Shown: one piece after another, positions 26,945 through 37,596 of the stretch
Layout: each line of letters starts with the position of its first letter
How positions within the stretch are numbered: the first letter of the stretch is position 1
Notes under the pieces: model-generated
Seen by the model: the letters and a program-made list of their open reading frames with translations, nothing else
Told to the model about the DNA's origin: nothing
The model's database searches: none
Position numbers and translations under genes: made by a program
From: Iodidimonas nitroreducens
GTDB taxonomy: Bacteria > Pseudomonadota > Alphaproteobacteria > Sphingomonadales > Rhodothalassiaceae
Assembly: GCA_000710935.1 (NCBI GenBank)
Contig: BAYV01000012.1
Coordinates: 1-64,000 of the forward strand
Direction of reading: 5' to 3'
Length of the DNA stretch: 64,000 bases

Positions 26945-27484
26945 TCATTGGCTGACGTTTTTCGAAATCCTCAGATAGTCCGCAACGATATCGCACCCGG
27001 CGCGGAGCAATACGAGCGCCGCCGTTGCGGCCCTCGCGCCCATATACCCCTCATTGGCACCAACGCTAGACGCGTCATCGGCATCAATCACCATGGCTTC
27101 AAAGGGAGCACGGATCGGCCGAGGCAAAACCTCCCGAGCCGCCAACCATTTCCGCCGCGCCGCCCATTGCGCCTCGGTCGGTTCAGTGCCGCGCCTACCG
27201 CCGTCCACCGGGACATTCATAGAGGCCACCACCCGCTGTGTAAGACCCGCCCGTTCATATTGTTCGCGATACCAAGTCGCGGCCTCATGCTGGCGTTCAG
27301 TCAGCATTTTTCGGTTCCGCAGCCGATCCACTGGCCAAGCCATCAGGTTTCGATGCACCCGCACCGGCTTGCGCCACCCATCCTCAATCATCACGGTATC
27401 AACGATGCCGCCCCGTGCCACCCGTTCTGGCGTCGCACCCAGACCCGTCAACTCCTTGGTCCTTCCCGTCTTGCGCCGTGCCAT
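26945..27484 (-). CDS. phage regulator-like protein of unknown function (possible DUF6456 relative)
   Basis: The 179-residue protein starts MARRKTGRTKELTGLGATPE after GGGAGTTGCATA. It has a basic N-terminus and a helical core (LTERQHEAATWYREQYERAGL, then MGARAATAALVLLRAGCDIVADYL). The pattern of 'residue pair-AATWYREQYERAG ... VDGG ... alanine-rich helix' recalls DUF6456 proteins of alphaproteobacteria, but I am not certain. It stands alone between the iteron-like array and a terminator, the position of a late-gene regulator. A role in switching on late transcription or binding the repeats is inference. Confidence 0.55.
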   Translation of the reverse strand: MARRKTGRTKELTGLGATPERVARGGIVDTVMIEDGWRKPVRVHRNLMAWPVDRLRNRKMLTERQHEAATWYREQYERAGLTQRVVASMNVPVDGGRRGTEPTEAQWAARRKWLAAREVLPRPIRAPFEAMVIDADDASSVGANEGYMGARAATAALVLLRAGCDIVADYLRISKNVSQ

Positions 27485-27592
27485 TATGCAACTCCCATTT
27501 GTTTCAATATTTCGGGTAAATTCATCATAGGATAGTTGGATAGTTATCCTGTCACGCACATGCGCGCACGCACACAAGCACCACCGTGAAAA

Positions 27593-27769
27593 AACTGTCC
27601 GAACTGTCCGAACTGTCCTTATGTTTTTGTTTTGGAATGTTGTTTGCTACGGACGGTTTCGGATGGTTCGGACAGTTAAAGGAGAGAAAAACAGGAATAT
27701 CCACCCCCGCCCCCGCGTCTTTCTCGATCTGCAATGCGCCCAACTGTCCGAACTGTCCGCAACTGTCCG
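27593..27769. repeat. iteron-like array: nine 9-bp AACTGTCCG units in 3 direct + 3 inverted + 3 direct groups
   Basis: Group 1 is at 27593-27619 (two exact units, one ending in T). Group 2 is the complement, CGGACGGTTT, CGGATGGTT and CGGACAGTT, at 27650-27677. Group 3 is at 27742-27769 (three exact units, one base between the last two). The 30-bp spacer 27620-27649 is T-rich. The array lies between the replicative helicase and the packaging-side genes in a 313-bp gap with no other gene. It fits a replication origin bound by an initiator, or an operator cluster; which one is unknown. Confidence 0.7.
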
Positions 27770-27797: not shown

Positions 27798-29366
27798 TCA
27801 CATAGCATAAGGGTCATAGTCGTCTCCCAGCATGCTTCCCTGCATTGGCGGTTTATCTGGTGACGGCGCAGACGAGCCTGCCGTAGGATCGTAATCATGG
27901 GACTTCAACCTTACGCCCCGGCGAAAAATACGTCCCCCAGCGCCCTTGCGTCGGATCACCTGTCGGTCACCCAGCGCCCGACCAAATGCAGTGTTGGAGA
28001 TGGGCTCATAATTACCTGCCTCGCACCATGTCTGATAATCTCGATAGAGGTCAGCAGCGCTTTCCTCGGCCCGTTCATCGCGCTCGCACCTGTCGTAAAA
28101 CCATTCGGAAAAAGGGTTGCTGGCCGCTCGGTAATCGGCCACCGCCTCCCGCACCGGTTCAGGGCGGACCAACCCCTCGGCCATCCACATAGCCAGCCCC
28201 TCAAGCGCCCAGTTCAAAATGCCCGGTCCCTCGGTTTCCACGAGCCGATCTTCCAGTGTGCGGTCAATCTCATTGTCCGGGATCTTGCGGGTGAAAGGGA
28301 TGGGCACGATGCGCCGCCATACCCCGTCGTCACCGCCCATCACGCGGGGACGGTCATTTACCTCCATCACAATCTTGAAGCGCGGCGAATATTCAAAGGG
28401 ATCTCGGTTCAAATGCCGTGCGGTGATCGGTGCTCCACCCGTAATGCCTTTCAACAAAGCCTCGTTAAGCTTTGCGCCTCGTGGTGGCTCCGAACAGCTC
28501 ACCAGCCGTACATCGCCCGATAGCCGCGCCAGATCGGGCGAGGCATCGGCTCCAGAGCGCTGCCCCAGATCAAGAAACGTTTTCACGTCCGCCACCGCCG
28601 CATAGCCGCCCATGACCCGTCTGATGATGTTCATAGTCGTCGATTTCCCGTCTTGCCCAGGGCCTTGCAGCATGAAAAAACACTGCTCTGAAACATGGCC
28701 GGAAAAAGCATAGCCGATCATCTTTTGGAAAAAGTCTGACATCTCCAAGTTCGGCAGGCATCGGGCAATATGCGCCCGCCAACCGGGGCATTGGGCTGAT
28801 GGATCATAGGCCACTGCGGCCTCGCGGGTTATGGCATCGGCGGGATCGTGGTTTTTCAAATGAAAGTCCACACCGCGCGATGCACAGTCCCGTATCTTCA
28901 GCGTTCCATTCGATAAGGTGATCGCCATGCGGTCCCGATCCAGTTGATCAGGCGCAACCCGCATATAATGCTTGCCTTGGGCCAGCATCGCCACCGTGCG
29001 TCCGGCATTACCCGCTTGGACGGCCCAACCAAACAGATCATCCGCCCTCTCCCGTGCCATGGCCGAGGCTTCAGCTTTTCCATCTGACGCCAGCCGCTTG
29101 GCGTGCTCTACCAAAGCCTGCGCTTCAATACGTATCCCTTGTGCTGTTTCATGGGCTAGCCGATGTGCCAGCATCTCGCCTTCCTCTGCCGACCAGCAAT
29201 GCCCGTTGAAAGCCAGCCAGCCGATCGATGGGCTAAACATCAGCCTACCCTGACCGCGTGCAACCAAGCGCTGGGAATTGCCCAGGTCACTCATATCACA
29301 ATAGGCCAATTGCAAGGGGTCCACGCCCTCTGCCTCAATCATCATGTCTTGTGACGGCTCGCTCAT
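27798..29366 (-). CDS. phage/plasmid-type SF3 helicase (D5/P4 primase-helicase family)
   Basis: The 522-residue protein contains the SF3 core: Walker A GPGQDGKST at about residue 235, FKIVMEVNDRPRVMGGDDGVWRRI (motif C and arginine finger region) at about 330, and a C-terminal winged region (SNTAFGRALGDRQVIRRKG). The N-terminal half corresponds to the D5 N-terminal domain (WLAFNGHCWSAEEG). It should unwind DNA at the phage origin, working with the Toprim primase encoded upstream. The ATG shares one base with the upstream stop. The iteron-like array follows it directly. Confidence 0.9.
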   Translation of the reverse strand: MSEPSQDMMIEAEGVDPLQLAYCDMSDLGNSQRLVARGQGRLMFSPSIGWLAFNGHCWSAEEGEMLAHRLAHETAQGIRIEAQALVEHAKRLASDGKAEASAMARERADDLFGWAVQAGNAGRTVAMLAQGKHYMRVAPDQLDRDRMAITLSNGTLKIRDCASRGVDFHLKNHDPADAITREAAVAYDPSAQCPGWRAHIARCLPNLEMSDFFQKMIGYAFSGHVSEQCFFMLQGPGQDGKSTTMNIIRRVMGGYAAVADVKTFLDLGQRSGADASPDLARLSGDVRLVSCSEPPRGAKLNEALLKGITGGAPITARHLNRDPFEYSPRFKIVMEVNDRPRVMGGDDGVWRRIVPIPFTRKIPDNEIDRTLEDRLVETEGPGILNWALEGLAMWMAEGLVRPEPVREAVADYRAASNPFSEWFYDRCERDERAEESAADLYRDYQTWCEAGNYEPISNTAFGRALGDRQVIRRKGAGGRIFRRGVRLKSHDYDPTAGSSAPSPDKPPMQGSMLGDDYDPYAM

Positions 29367-29812
29367 CAATGCACACTCCGCCTAAGGATATCTGGTGACC
29401 CCGCCCCGGCATCAGCGGCGGCTTGGGCAAGCGCCTGTTCCCGCCATGCCCGGCTTTTCTTCAAGGCCAGCATCGCTCCCTCCCTTTGTGCCCTGCTGTG
29501 CAAATCCAGCGCCGCGGCCGCCAACGCAGACACACGATCCGCCGCCGTTTCGGCATCCGGGGGCGGAGCCTGCCCCGCGGCTGCGGCATAAACCGCAAGC
29601 AGCGCTTCCGACTCTTCCAACACTTGCGGATCAGCCAGCATGCGTTTCAAAACTGCCCTCAATACCTTCGGATCAAAGCCCATGGCCTTTATCTCCGCGT
29701 CCAGTTCTCTGGCATCCGCATTGATAGCCTCGCGGGCCTTAGCAATATTTTCCAACCGCTCCAGATAACGTCGAATCAGGTCCGGTGCCTTTGCATTGTC
29801 CGCACCCATCAT
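29366..29812 (-). CDS. GapR-like DNA-binding domain protein with a C-terminal extension
   Basis: Residues about 10-75 (LIRRYLERLENIAKAREAINADARELDAEIKAMGFDPKVLRAVLKRM) follow the GapR/DUF2312 pattern, including ...EIKA.GFD.K.LR..L and EALLAVY. GapR proteins in alphaproteobacteria bind overtwisted DNA and promote replication. Here the protein is 148 residues, with an extra alanine-rich helical tail not found in chromosomal GapR (about 85-90 residues). It overlaps its neighbours by 1-4 bp in the primase-helicase operon, which supports a role in phage replication. Confidence 0.75.
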   Translation of the reverse strand: MMGADNAKAPDLIRRYLERLENIAKAREAINADARELDAEIKAMGFDPKVLRAVLKRMLADPQVLEESEALLAVYAAAAGQAPPPDAETAADRVSALAAAALDLHSRAQREGAMLALKKSRAWREQALAQAAADAGAGSPDILRRSVH

Positions 29813-31038
29813 GCCTTCTCCCTGATCTGATCATTGAAATCCGCGCCCATTCTAGGGCGTACCACACGCACCGATCTTGCCCCCACCCGGCGCCATGCCT
29901 GACGGGCAAGGCTGGCACACAAAGCGGCCCGCCCACCCGCATCCAGCATCGTCTCTGTGCGCCGGCGCATCGGCCCACGCGCAAAAATCCGCACAGGGGC
30001 CATATCGGCATCAATTGCCACAATCACATCGCCGGGATCGGGCAAAAGCCAGGGCGGCGAGGCCGGGTCGGAAATCGGCGCATGGGGGTCAAAGCAACCG
30101 TCTCGATCCCGCAACCAACCCCCTTGAAAATTGGCCAGGGATAAAACCGCCGCGACCCGCATAGGGCCGTGCTGTTCCATCAGCATCTGTGCCACCGCCC
30201 ATGTGCTCTCAAGCCCCTCACCCACCAGCAATGGCCCCATCCGAGCATCGGACAAAAGTGCCGGAGGCCCGAGCGGCGCAACTGCCCCTATGGGGTGCCC
30301 GTAGATTCGGCGCGATGGCAAAGGATCCCCGGTGTCGGGATCGCGCAAATCAGCCTTATCCGCACCATCGGCGGCCAAATAGGTCACATGAATGGCTGCC
30401 AGCCGCCATGCAATTTGGCCATGGCCCAGAGCCACCATCTTTGCCATGCCTACCACCATGGCAGGGGCGATCAGACGCACCTGCCCGCCCGCCCAAAGGG
30501 CCGGGCAGGCAGGGTGATATCGCAAAGCATCCAATCCGCCGGGCAGAGCTGCAGGGTCGAGATCGCGCGATTTCAACCAACGCTCTACCAAGCTGTTGCG
30601 CGCTGGCCGGGCATCGCGCCAGATCATGGCGGCAATGGGAAAAGTAGAACGGGAACGCGGTGCCGGTGGCAGGCGATGAACGGAATTTCGCGCAGGCGCA
30701 CGCGGGATCGCCTGCGCCTCTAAATCCCCGACCAATCGCTGCGCGGCATCTCGCGGTGATCCTCCCCGCAGGGCCATTTCCAGATCCACCGGACCGCCGC
30801 CTGCCACGCGCTTTCCCGGTGGCGGTGGGCAGGCAAAACAAGCCCAGACATTACGCGACAAGTGCACCGTAAACCGACCCGATCGAGCGGACCCACCACA
30901 TAATGGGCACGGCCCGGCCATACGCCCTGCACCGGACCGGCGCAGGCCCGCCACCCCATCCACATCCATCACCGACACTTGCCTGGCCCGATCGAATAGA
31001 TCATGGCGACGATGATCGCTTCTCTGGGGCCTGCTCAT
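29809..31038 (-). CDS. Toprim-domain DNA primase with zinc finger
   Basis: The 409-residue protein has a CHC2-like zinc ribbon (CPLCGG at 44-49, CFAC at 67-70), a DUF7146-like linker region, and a C-terminal Toprim domain with GEGLES (273-278), AIDAD (341-345) and a final DFND motif. It should make RNA primers for phage DNA synthesis with the SF3 helicase encoded two genes downstream. Both junctions are ATGA overlaps. Alanine- and arginine-rich segments reflect the high GC of the region. Confidence 0.88.
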   Translation of the reverse strand: MSRPQRSDHRRHDLFDRARQVSVMDVDGVAGLRRSGAGRMAGPCPLCGGSARSGRFTVHLSRNVWACFACPPPPGKRVAGGGPVDLEMALRGGSPRDAAQRLVGDLEAQAIPRAPARNSVHRLPPAPRSRSTFPIAAMIWRDARPARNSLVERWLKSRDLDPAALPGGLDALRYHPACPALWAGGQVRLIAPAMVVGMAKMVALGHGQIAWRLAAIHVTYLAADGADKADLRDPDTGDPLPSRRIYGHPIGAVAPLGPPALLSDARMGPLLVGEGLESTWAVAQMLMEQHGPMRVAAVLSLANFQGGWLRDRDGCFDPHAPISDPASPPWLLPDPGDVIVAIDADMAPVRIFARGPMRRRTETMLDAGGRAALCASLARQAWRRVGARSVRVVRPRMGADFNDQIREKA

Positions 31039-31673
31039 AAAACCACCCCCGGCATCACGCCAGAGACTGAAAATTTGTCGGTTTCATTTCCCCAGACTTG
31101 CCAGCCCGGTGCGGACTGACGTGCGAACATCTCCAGATAAGGACCATCCACCAGCGTCTGAATGCGATCACGCACCCCGTCCGGCTTGCGGCTGTGCTGC
31201 CGCCGCGGCTCAAAAATAACCTGACGGACGCCCCCTGATTTTCGCCGGGGAGCCCCTCGCGTAAACAGCAGGCACAGCTCCATCTCCTGCCGGGTCCAAT
31301 ACCCCATTCCCATGCGGGTAACCGGTGGCATCATCGCGTCAAGAGAGAGAAACCCCTGCGCCTCCGCTGCCGCGCGCGTTTTAACCCAGCAAAAAGCAAT
31401 CGTCTTGAAATCAAAGCCCCAGACTCTCCCCAAAGTGATCGCCTGATCCAGATGTGACGATACGATCCACATGAAAAGCGCGCAGTCCTTGGCTGCGCTA
31501 CGCTCCACCGGGATCGCTGCAAGACTGGGCGCATCCATGGTCCGATAATGGTCATGGGCGGACCGGTGAGGCGTGCTCTCCCCACCGCTATAGGTTCTAA
31601 ACGACCAGGGTGGGTCAGCATAAATGCACCCAAAGGGCCCATCAGGCAACAAAACACCCGATCCATGCACCAT
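31035..31673 (-). CDS. MT-A70 family adenine methyltransferase
   Basis: Begun at the ATG after the cupin gene, the protein has 212 residues. CIYADPPWSF (residues 16-25) holds the catalytic DPPW; FMWIVSSHLDQAI, FCWVKTRA and MGYWTRQEMELCLLFTRG are standard MT-A70 blocks. Phage MT-A70 enzymes methylate adenine N6 in DNA, probably to evade restriction. The longer frame to 31886 runs back through the cupin gene; a GTG at 31679 is an alternative start. It overlaps the primase by 4 bp. With the D12 enzyme at the other end, this phage has two adenine methylases. Confidence 0.88.
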   Translation of the reverse strand: MVHGSGVLLPDGPFGCIYADPPWSFRTYSGGESTPHRSAHDHYRTMDAPSLAAIPVERSAAKDCALFMWIVSSHLDQAITLGRVWGFDFKTIAFCWVKTRAAAEAQGFLSLDAMMPPVTRMGMGYWTRQEMELCLLFTRGAPRRKSGGVRQVIFEPRRQHSRKPDGVRDRIQTLVDGPYLEMFARQSAPGWQVWGNETDKFSVSGVMPGVVL

Positions 31674-31680
31674 GCGCACT

Positions 31681-32190
31681 CTATGAATCACCGCAGCCGG
31701 GGCCTGTCGAACCCGGATTCTTGGGGTCTGTGAAATCTCGCCAATGCCGCCAGCCCTGCGGGCAGTGAAATCCCCATGCACGAACATGAGGGCCGGTGAA
31801 AAACACCGTCCACACTGGTCCTTCATTTTTGGGAATCTCGATCCGGTGCGCCAATTTGGCGCGGCGAAATACCAGATCGCCTGCACATATCCTGTCGCGA
31901 TGATGAACGCCCCCGGCCGCGATCCGGTGTTCGATATAGCTGCCCAAAACGATCAACGAACACGATATCCAAGGGTGATCGTGCAATGCGCGATCATCAT
32001 CAGACCGGTGAAATCTGTGCAAATAAATATTGAACAAAGGGTTGCGCGGGATCATGTACCAGCGCTCCAGATAAGTCTCACCCTGCCCGATCACGCCCTG
32101 CCCAATCACTAAATCCGGACGTGGGCGGCCCACCAAAAAGCGATTAATGCGTCTCAAGCAGAAAGTCCGCAGGCGTTCAGGTATTTTCAT
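31681..32190 (-). CDS. cupin-fold phage protein
   Basis: The 169-residue protein starts after AAAGGAGACGGTG. It has cupin-type motifs: HRFHRSDDDRALHDHPW (metal-binding His cluster near residue 58-74), then RICAGDLVFRRAKLAHRIE (second cupin motif near residue 105), then WTVFFTGPHVRAWGFHCP. Similar small cupins occur in many phages without a known substrate. It lies in the early operon between the tiny membrane-peptide gene and the MT-A70 gene. It may be a dioxygenase or sugar-binding protein; neither is supported further here. Confidence 0.7.
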   Translation of the reverse strand: MKIPERLRTFCLRRINRFLVGRPRPDLVIGQGVIGQGETYLERWYMIPRNPLFNIYLHRFHRSDDDRALHDHPWISCSLIVLGSYIEHRIAAGGVHHRDRICAGDLVFRRAKLAHRIEIPKNEGPVWTVFFTGPHVRAWGFHCPQGWRHWRDFTDPKNPGSTGPGCGDS

Positions 32191-32210
32191 CACCGTCTCC
32201 TTTCTCTGGC

Positions 32211-32321
32211 TCACAGGCAAAGCCCGATCACCGCCCAAAGCCACAGGTTCACGCCAAAAATCAGCAGCGCCGCATTGCGCTTGCGCATCCGCGCGCGCGG
32301 CAGCAGAAATGATCGTGTCAT
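32211..32321 (-). CDS. 36-residue single-TM early peptide
   Basis: An ATG overlapping the upstream stop by 4 bp (ATGA) opens a 36-codon frame: MTRSFLLPRARMRKRNAALL, then a hydrophobic segment with two Trp ending VIGLCL. GAGGAAAGC lies at ribosome-site distance. A basic N-terminus followed by one helix predicts an inner-membrane peptide. It fits exactly between two coupled early genes (the cupin start follows 20 bp later), which argues that it is translated. No family is known to me; a superinfection-exclusion or host-modulating role is possible but unproven. Confidence 0.6.
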   Translation of the reverse strand: MTRSFLLPRARMRKRNAALLIFGVNLWLWAVIGLCL

Positions 32322-32614
32322 GATGCTTTCCTCGTGATGTGGCGGCGCTTGATGGCCAGATAGTCAAAGCCACCAAAGCGATTGCGCCTTTGCGCCAGTT
32401 CAACCACACCGCCGCGCAAAAGCTTGCGCGCCAATGCTGCCTCAGCACCGGACGGCAGCCATGGGCCCACGCAATAAACAATGCGATCGCCGGGGTCGGC
32501 AGATCGGACCCAATCCTCAAAACTGGTTATCGAGCATAGAGCGGAATACTGGACCTGCCTCAACGCAGGTTGGGATTCGCGGTACATATCCTCATTTCCA
32601 TGGTGTCCGGTCAT
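32318..32614 (-). CDS. phage early protein of unknown function
   Basis: GGAGGAATT directly precedes the ATG at 32614, so I start here rather than at 32662. The 98-residue product has CSITSFEDWVRSADPGDRIVYCVGPWL (about residues 26-52) followed by a helix (EAALARKLLRGGVVELAQRR) and a basic end (AIKRRHITRK). The layout suggests a small DNA- or RNA-binding protein (winged-helix-like), but no family is recognised. It is the first gene after the CII-like gene and is coupled to the downstream peptide gene. Confidence 0.65.
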   Translation of the reverse strand: MTGHHGNEDMYRESQPALRQVQYSALCSITSFEDWVRSADPGDRIVYCVGPWLPSGAEAALARKLLRGGVVELAQRRNRFGGFDYLAIKRRHITRKAS

Positions 32615-32681
32615 AATTCCTCCGTGGCGGGAAACGGCATCCCGCAAACAATGATCATCCAAAAAGAAATCGGTGCGGCGC

Positions 32682-33161
32682 TCAGCCGCTGTCGAGACGC
32701 CCCAAGGCCGCGTTCAGATCCACCAGCACCTGAATGGCTTCACGCACCTCCCCGTGCAGGTCCCGGCGCACAACATCGGCAGCAGAGACACGTCCATCTT
32801 CGGCCAGCGAATCTGCCAAATGCGCCGCCACGTCGCCGGCTTCACGAATCAGATCCGCAAGCCGCCCGGCCCAGGGCCTGTCCTCTTTCGATGCCACACC
32901 CAGCGGCACCAGCGCATAGCCCGAAGCATGGGCCAACAGCCGCGTCACATATGGGATGCCCGTAAGGGGCTCCAGCCGAACCAGAATGTCGGCGGGGATG
33001 AATTCCGCGGCCATGGCGGGATTGGTGGTATTGCAATAATGGGACAATCGGCTTTGCGAGCGGCCGGCAAAGTCTGCGGCCACTTCCTGTCCACCCAACG
33101 CACGATAAAGATCACGAGTGGCAAGCTTCAGGGCACGGGCTGTCACACTCAAATCGGTCAT
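32682..33161 (-). CDS. phage regulatory protein CII-like (CP76 family)
   Basis: The 159-residue protein has the CP76/CII-type pattern: helix ATRDLYRALGGQEVAADFAGRSQSRLSHYCN (residues about 14-44, a helix-turn-helix), then FIPADILVRLEPLTGIPYVTRLLAH. GAGGAGGGTGGGGGA precedes the ATG, an unusually strong ribosome site. It overlaps the Cro-like gene by 4 bp. By analogy with P2/186-type CII it would activate lysogeny or integration functions. The call is by family pattern and position next to the Cro-like gene. Confidence 0.75.
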   Translation of the reverse strand: MTDLSVTARALKLATRDLYRALGGQEVAADFAGRSQSRLSHYCNTTNPAMAAEFIPADILVRLEPLTGIPYVTRLLAHASGYALVPLGVASKEDRPWAGRLADLIREAGDVAAHLADSLAEDGRVSAADVVRRDLHGEVREAIQVLVDLNAALGRLDSG

Positions 33162-37466: not shown

Positions 37467-37536
37467 GGTGGGACAAAACCACCGCCTAAGACATTGAAAT
37501 ATAAGGGATCAAAAAAGAAGTGGTGCCCAGGGGCGG
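37467..37536. repeat. attR, 70-bp core direct repeat
   Basis: Identical to 2356-2425 over all 70 bases. Bases 37521-37536 are the 3' end of the intact tRNA-Phe, so integration rebuilt a complete tRNA. The octamer GTGGGACA is at 37468-37475 and its complement lies just outside at 37439-37446. Confidence 0.95.
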
Positions 37537-37596
37537 AATCGAACCACCGACACTGCGATTTTCAGTCGCATGCTCTACCAACTGAGCTACCTGGGC
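37521..37596 (-). tRNA. tRNA-Phe (anticodon GAA)
   Basis: On the minus strand the gene reads GCCCAGGTAGCTC ... GACTGAAAATC ... GGTTCGATTCC ... CTGGGCACCA. It is 76 bases with encoded CCA; the acceptor arms pair (GCCCAGG with CCTGGGC), the anticodon loop CTGAAAA gives GAA, and the T-loop is GGTTCGATTCC. It lies downstream of yacG in the host cluster. Its 3' end is the integration target of the prophage, and it remains intact. Confidence 0.97.

Follow-up and report, generated by a model that had tools for sequence, protein, structure and literature searches.

Short direct and inverted repeats directly behind a D5/P4-family helicase gene as the probable replication origin of a tailed prophage

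The stretch of DNA analysed here (hereafter the window; 64 kb) carries a complete tailed prophage of ~35 kb, as seen from its genes for the small and large terminase, portal, major head/protease, a CI-like repressor, and an integrase beside tRNA-Phe, together with perfect 70-bp direct repeats at 2356-2425 and 37467-37536, ~35 kb apart. These repeats, the second of which overlaps the end of the tRNA-Phe gene (37521-37596), are the att sites of the prophage, and the same prophage is present in IMG/VR as a 34,196-bp contig. Its replication operon lies on the minus strand and includes a toprim-type primase (409 aa, 29809-31038) and an SF3 helicase of the D5/P4 family (523 aa, 27798-29369; Pfam D5_N and DUF5906), the proposed initiator, whose upstream neighbour, running in the same direction, encodes a GapR-like protein (148 aa, 29366-29812). 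Upstream of the primase, the same strand carries a gene for an MT-A70-type DNA methyltransferase (31035-31886). The gap from the helicase stop to a 179-residue ORF with weak DUF6456 similarity (26945-27484, minus strand) is occupied by an array of short repeats, which separates the replication operon from the small terminase gene. A preliminary description had set this array beside an SF3 helicase gene, and it does indeed lie directly 3' of the D5/P4-family gene.

Nine units at 27593-27769, arranged as three direct, three inverted, and three direct copies, had been reported in that description. The nine units and their arrangement are real, but the count was incomplete and a fourth, degenerate inverted cluster had been overlooked: a weight-matrix scan gave 11 units in four clusters. 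Six copies of AACTGTCCG are exact (27593, 27602, 27669 on the minus strand, 27742, 27751, and 27761), the units at 27611 and 27650 (minus) have one mismatch, and that at 27660 (minus), CGGATGGTT, has two. Cluster G1 (27742-27769, plus strand), nearest the helicase stop, consists of the three exact units at 27742, 27751, and 27761; G2 (27650-27677, minus strand) holds the inverted units at 27650, 27660, and 27669; and G3 (27593-27619, plus strand) reads AACTGTCCG, AACTGTCCG, AACTGTCCT. The additional units, GGATAGTT GGATAGTT, form the degenerate cluster G4 (27530-27545, minus strand) with a spacing of 8 bp, and relatives match it in position and spacing. On the plus strand the order is therefore G4 (-), G3 (+), a T-rich spacer, G2 (-), and G1 (+), with orientation alternating. 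The 30-bp spacer, already noted as T-rich, was confirmed at 27620-27649 (18/30 T, 73% AT); of all 30-mers in the prophage region, it is among the 1% with the lowest stability, and it is a candidate melting site. Between G3 and G4 lies a 24-nt run of alternating purines and pyrimidines, CACGCACATGCGCGCACGCACACA (27553-27576).

The occurrence of the array is not due to chance. Its 7-mer count reached 7 within a 450-bp window, compared with a maximum of 5 in 2000 first-order Markov shuffles, and it was the highest among the 450-bp stretches of the 64-kb window, all others having counts of ≤5. Across the 3.08-Mb genome, the double unit (≤2 mismatches) is unique to this array. When the strict dyad symmetry of the array was compared with cluster-shuffled arrangements, it was unexceptional (p 0.73), and GC skew showed no sign switch at the array and was uninformative for locating the origin. 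An RNA-family element was rejected, as an Rfam search of the array region returned no match, and no nucleotide similarity to isolated phages was found for the region. The exact unit is rare, since a pattern search of 385 genomes of the class found it in this genome alone; a literature search with the unit as a string retrieved unrelated papers alone among the matches listed.

The helicase is of the initiator type, i.e., an SF3 helicase of the D5_N/Primase_Cterm family, with matches to Pfam D5_N (1e-17) and PHROG 1156 (4e-106). Its AlphaFold2 model (mean pLDDT 91) also matches the D5, E5, and C962R helicases, and the best solved structural match for the whole protein is the SaPI5 primase-helicase (PDB 7ola; Z 29.8, 395 residues, 5.2 Å rmsd). 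The C-terminal domain (residues 419-488, encoded at 27906-28115 on the minus strand), which we propose as the iteron-binding domain, gave a winged helix when predicted alone. The model of this domain resembles the RFX DNA-binding domain (Z 10.2-10.7) and the crystallised origin-binding domain of P4 alpha (1ka8; Z 8.7, 77 residues, 2.5 Å, 22% identity), and it is predicted to be a winged helix of the RFX type.

So as not to select on the array itself, we gathered 160 relatives of the helicase by protein similarity. The relatives came from alignment-based scans; a single-sequence scan of genome contigs with the helicase gave no match. Arrays were scored de novo as repeated 7-mers within 450 bp spanning the helicase stop codon. 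Before filtering, 106 of 156 loci were significant at the stop, compared with 3 of 154 upstream and 1-2 per control set. After removal of redundancy and of four contigs that had been found through their arrays, a significant array was present at the helicase stop in 74 of 107 loci, with corresponding figures of 2/106 upstream, 0/110 inside the gene, and 1/104 and 1/94 in control windows (3' vs. 5' enrichment, Fisher p 3e-28). The preliminary description had held that relatives keeping the replication genes and lacking the array would count against an origin; instead, an array is in the same place in most of them, and the origin proposal is strongly supported. About 30% of relatives had no significant array by the 7-mer test, which is blind to degenerate units. 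When viral contigs were scanned for the exact pattern, the array turned up adjoining helicases of just 43%, 30%, and 22% identity. Both position and the ~9-bp pitch are conserved among the relatives, unit spacing being mostly 8-11 bp with a sharp mode at 9 bp (80 loci).

Close relatives also repeat the G1-G2-G3-G4 order. Following the helicase stop they have three direct units, one or two inverted units, and a gap of ~34-36 bp, beyond which come two or three direct units at a 9-bp pitch, a gap of 62-85 bp, and two or three inverted units. In most of them the G2-G3 gap is not AT-rich (AT fraction 0.23-0.60). Near-perfect dyad arrays are frequent in distant relatives, with 20 of 80 loci significant at p < 0.05 vs. 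cluster-shuffled arrangements. The place between G3 and G4, ~180-260 bp behind the helicase stop, is taken in relatives by an alternating purine/pyrimidine run of the GCGCATGCG type, and this is where 17 of 22 close relatives have their longest alternating run (binomial p ~7e-10 vs. uniform placement).

The unit itself varies among relatives (CGGACA, CAGACA, GGGAGG, GGAAGG, TGTAGG, and others). It diverges with the helicase, and slightly more closely with the C-terminal domain than with the core, the correlation being modest: array similarity gave a partial rank correlation of 0.24 with C-terminal identity given the core and of 0.15 with core identity given the C-terminus, the pairs being non-independent in both cases. 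Since the unit changes in this manner, the set of loci permits a test of how a winged helix chooses its DNA sequence. At the start of the predicted recognition helix (helicase residues ~456-466), Thr, rather than Ser or Asn, goes with CAGACA units; in the aligned set it was found with 4/5 CAGACA and 1/16 CGGACA arrays (post hoc Fisher p 0.004).

The neighbours of 80 arrays were compared to identify a protein partner. A GapR homologue was near 7 of the 80, the 179-residue protein had no homologue near any of them, and both proteins were rejected as partners, whereas a primase homologue was near 43. On this co-occurrence the helicase, acting via its C-terminal domain, is most likely the partner of the array, rather than GapR or a separate protein. 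Judged from gene content, the GapR-like protein is dispensable for the array in relatives.

Several known replication systems resemble this arrangement in part. The type I iterons of P4 (ori1/crr) are short repeats in inverted groups, and P4 requires two elements, ori1 and crr, kilobases apart. The present array likewise has short repeats in inverted groups, and the P4 alpha origin-binding domain resembles the C-terminal domain of the window's helicase (Z 8.7, as above); however, here there is a single compact array and the unit sequence is different. A split origin of the P4 type was ruled out, as the 64-kb window contains no second array and the double unit is unique genome-wide. Another such system is that of Lactobacillus casei phage A2, whose homologous helicase shares 32% identity over 89% coverage and whose record (AJ251789) has a rep_origin annotated at 32208-32717, immediately behind the helicase gene; the comparison rests on this annotated record. 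Within that stretch, eight ACGGGA units form inverted clusters surrounding an A/T-rich centre, and the 7-mer ACGGGAG occurs seven times (p 0.002). A2 differs from the prophage in its unit, ACGGGA(G), in having eight copies and an A/T-rich centre, in a longer helicase product (ORF35, annotated as a primase), and in a host of a different phylum.

In staphylococcal islands, the C-terminal domain of SaPI Rep proteins recognises iterons directly downstream of their own gene, and repeats that lie downstream of the gene for Cch2, a D5-type helicase, are bound by the isolated C-terminal domain of that protein (PMC7581432). Origins of PICIs lie 3' of rep and have an AT-rich region between two iteron sets (PMC6092414). 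The array described here shares with SaPI and PICI rep-ori modules the position of the iterons immediately 3' of the initiator gene (PMC6092414, PMC7581432), and the helicase has the D5-type fold of SaPI5 PriRep (PDB 7ola/7om0) over residues 10-492. In contrast to SaPI5, the primase is a separate toprim protein, and in place of the two iteron sets of PICIs there are four clusters of CGGACAGTT units. Furthermore, SaPIs and PICIs are satellites, whereas this tailed prophage is complete and encodes its own terminase, portal, and capsid proteins; its identity as a helper-dependent PICI was ruled out because its own terminases, portal, and head/protease lie between the att repeats. Cch2 of SCCmec is similar in being a D5_N/Primase_Cterm helicase with repeats just downstream of its own gene, but it has just three AAGTG iterons and another primer-making system, CCPol-MP (PMC7581432). 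In the crenarchaeal plasmid pRN1, too, the primase-helicase gene is followed directly by the origin element; that element is a stem-loop, and its authors found no AT-rich, iteron-type origin there (PMC4234260).

The recurrence of the array in the same place across many bacteria and phages argues that it is the replication origin of the phage. We consider it very probable that the array is the vegetative origin of this prophage and that the helicase gene just upstream encodes its own initiator. Short direct and inverted repeats directly 3' of an initiator helicase gene are characteristic of origins served by self-loading helicases, and by analogy with SaPI/PICI, P4, and A2 we infer binding and replication of that kind here. 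The C-terminal winged helix would bind the ~9-bp units, probably with each unit occupied by a single domain, and helicase subunits could in this way be recruited to clusters of two or three units in close succession. A helicase ring, or probably two facing rings, may then assemble where the alternating clusters surround the T-rich spacer, melt it, and unwind outwards in both directions, after which the operon's primase and the host polymerase would copy the separated strands. Melting of the T-rich spacer is the weakest step of this scheme, since the G2-G3 gap of most close relatives is not AT-rich.

A mechanism of this type would be ordinary, and the interest lies in the breadth of such origins among tailed phages. 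In a broad collection of loci, viral and bacterial alike, most of the related D5-type helicases are followed at the same position by an array, so the origins of many unstudied temperate phages may be found by reading a few hundred bases behind the helicase gene.

Other roles for the array were weighed against that of an origin. The array precedes the 179-residue ORF and lies where the replication operon gives way to the small terminase gene, a location that would suit a transcriptional operator for the 179-residue protein or another late-gene regulator, acting in a switch from replication to packaging, and the gene that follows the array in one relative (L012) resembles, by eye, a NusG-type factor. 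The preliminary description had offered the 179-residue protein as an alternative, but none of the 80 arrays has a homologue of it nearby, the array keeps with the helicase while the downstream genes vary, and scanning the region for the sigma-70 consensus gave no promoter-like site. An array of nine to eleven units at a 9-bp pitch in inverted clusters would also be unusual for an operator, and we regard this role as very unlikely. We attach similarly little probability to an origin that works as an essential hairpin formed by pairing of G2 with G3, as proposed for pRN1, where a 3' stem-loop is required for replication (PMC4234260). In the window, G2 and G3 can pair over 20 bp, with 2 mismatches, to close a 45-nt loop, the region folds as RNA slightly better than shuffled sequences (z -2.3), and the pRN1 origin, with a 21-nt stem and a 58-nt loop at 75 °C, is likewise behind a primase-helicase gene. 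However, the longest stem in relatives uses other clusters and positions, so that its place is not constant, the spacings in clusters that face each other often do not line up (e.g., 8/11 vs. 9/9), and a hairpin has no need of direct repeats at a fixed pitch.

Least probable of all, in our estimate, is that the array is linked to replication without being the origin, e.g., as an incompatibility or copy-control locus or as the terminator of the replication operon. In favour of this idea, iteron arrays of plasmids also act in copy control, and the G3 units, on the strand of the operon, make a terminator-like hairpin with a T run. Against it, the annotated A2 origin occupies exactly this position and has such an array, the double unit is found nowhere else in the genome, and no comparable repeat exists in the other 450-bp stretches of the 64 kb.

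Arrays with a CGGACA core were also encountered near other replication genes, including DnaB and lambda-O-like genes of other phages. When viral contigs were searched for three closely spaced TGTCCG hexamers, 56 of 119 loci among the matches listed had mixed-orientation clusters, compared with 7 of 120 among those listed for a reversed-hexamer control. Among the matches listed, the genes adjoining the TGTCCG set showed an enrichment of AAA_25, Prim-Pol, DnaB, and D5 proteins, and those adjoining the control an enrichment of collagen-like and virion proteins. It is conceivable, though doubtful, that the CGGACA (TGTCCG) unit is part of an origin module common to unrelated replication systems; if so, origins and DNA-binding modules would be swapped between helicase engines, or a common factor would read them. 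A shared C-terminal domain of the D5 and AAA_25 helicases with CGGACA arrays was unsupported at the sequence level (hhalign probability 1.9%). In seven viral contigs (L050, L051, L070, L077, L097, L116, and L141), mixed-orientation CGGACA/TGTCCG arrays are found overlapping the 3' ends of AAA_25/PrimPol helicase genes or following them, and several of the arrays linked to such genes end in a unit hairpin with a short AT-rich loop. In others (L056, L064, L065, L082, L086, L087, L099, L117, and L148), the TGTCCG array lies within an ORF whose product looks, by eye, like a helix-turn-helix replication protein, an arrangement that recalls the lambda origin inside gene O.
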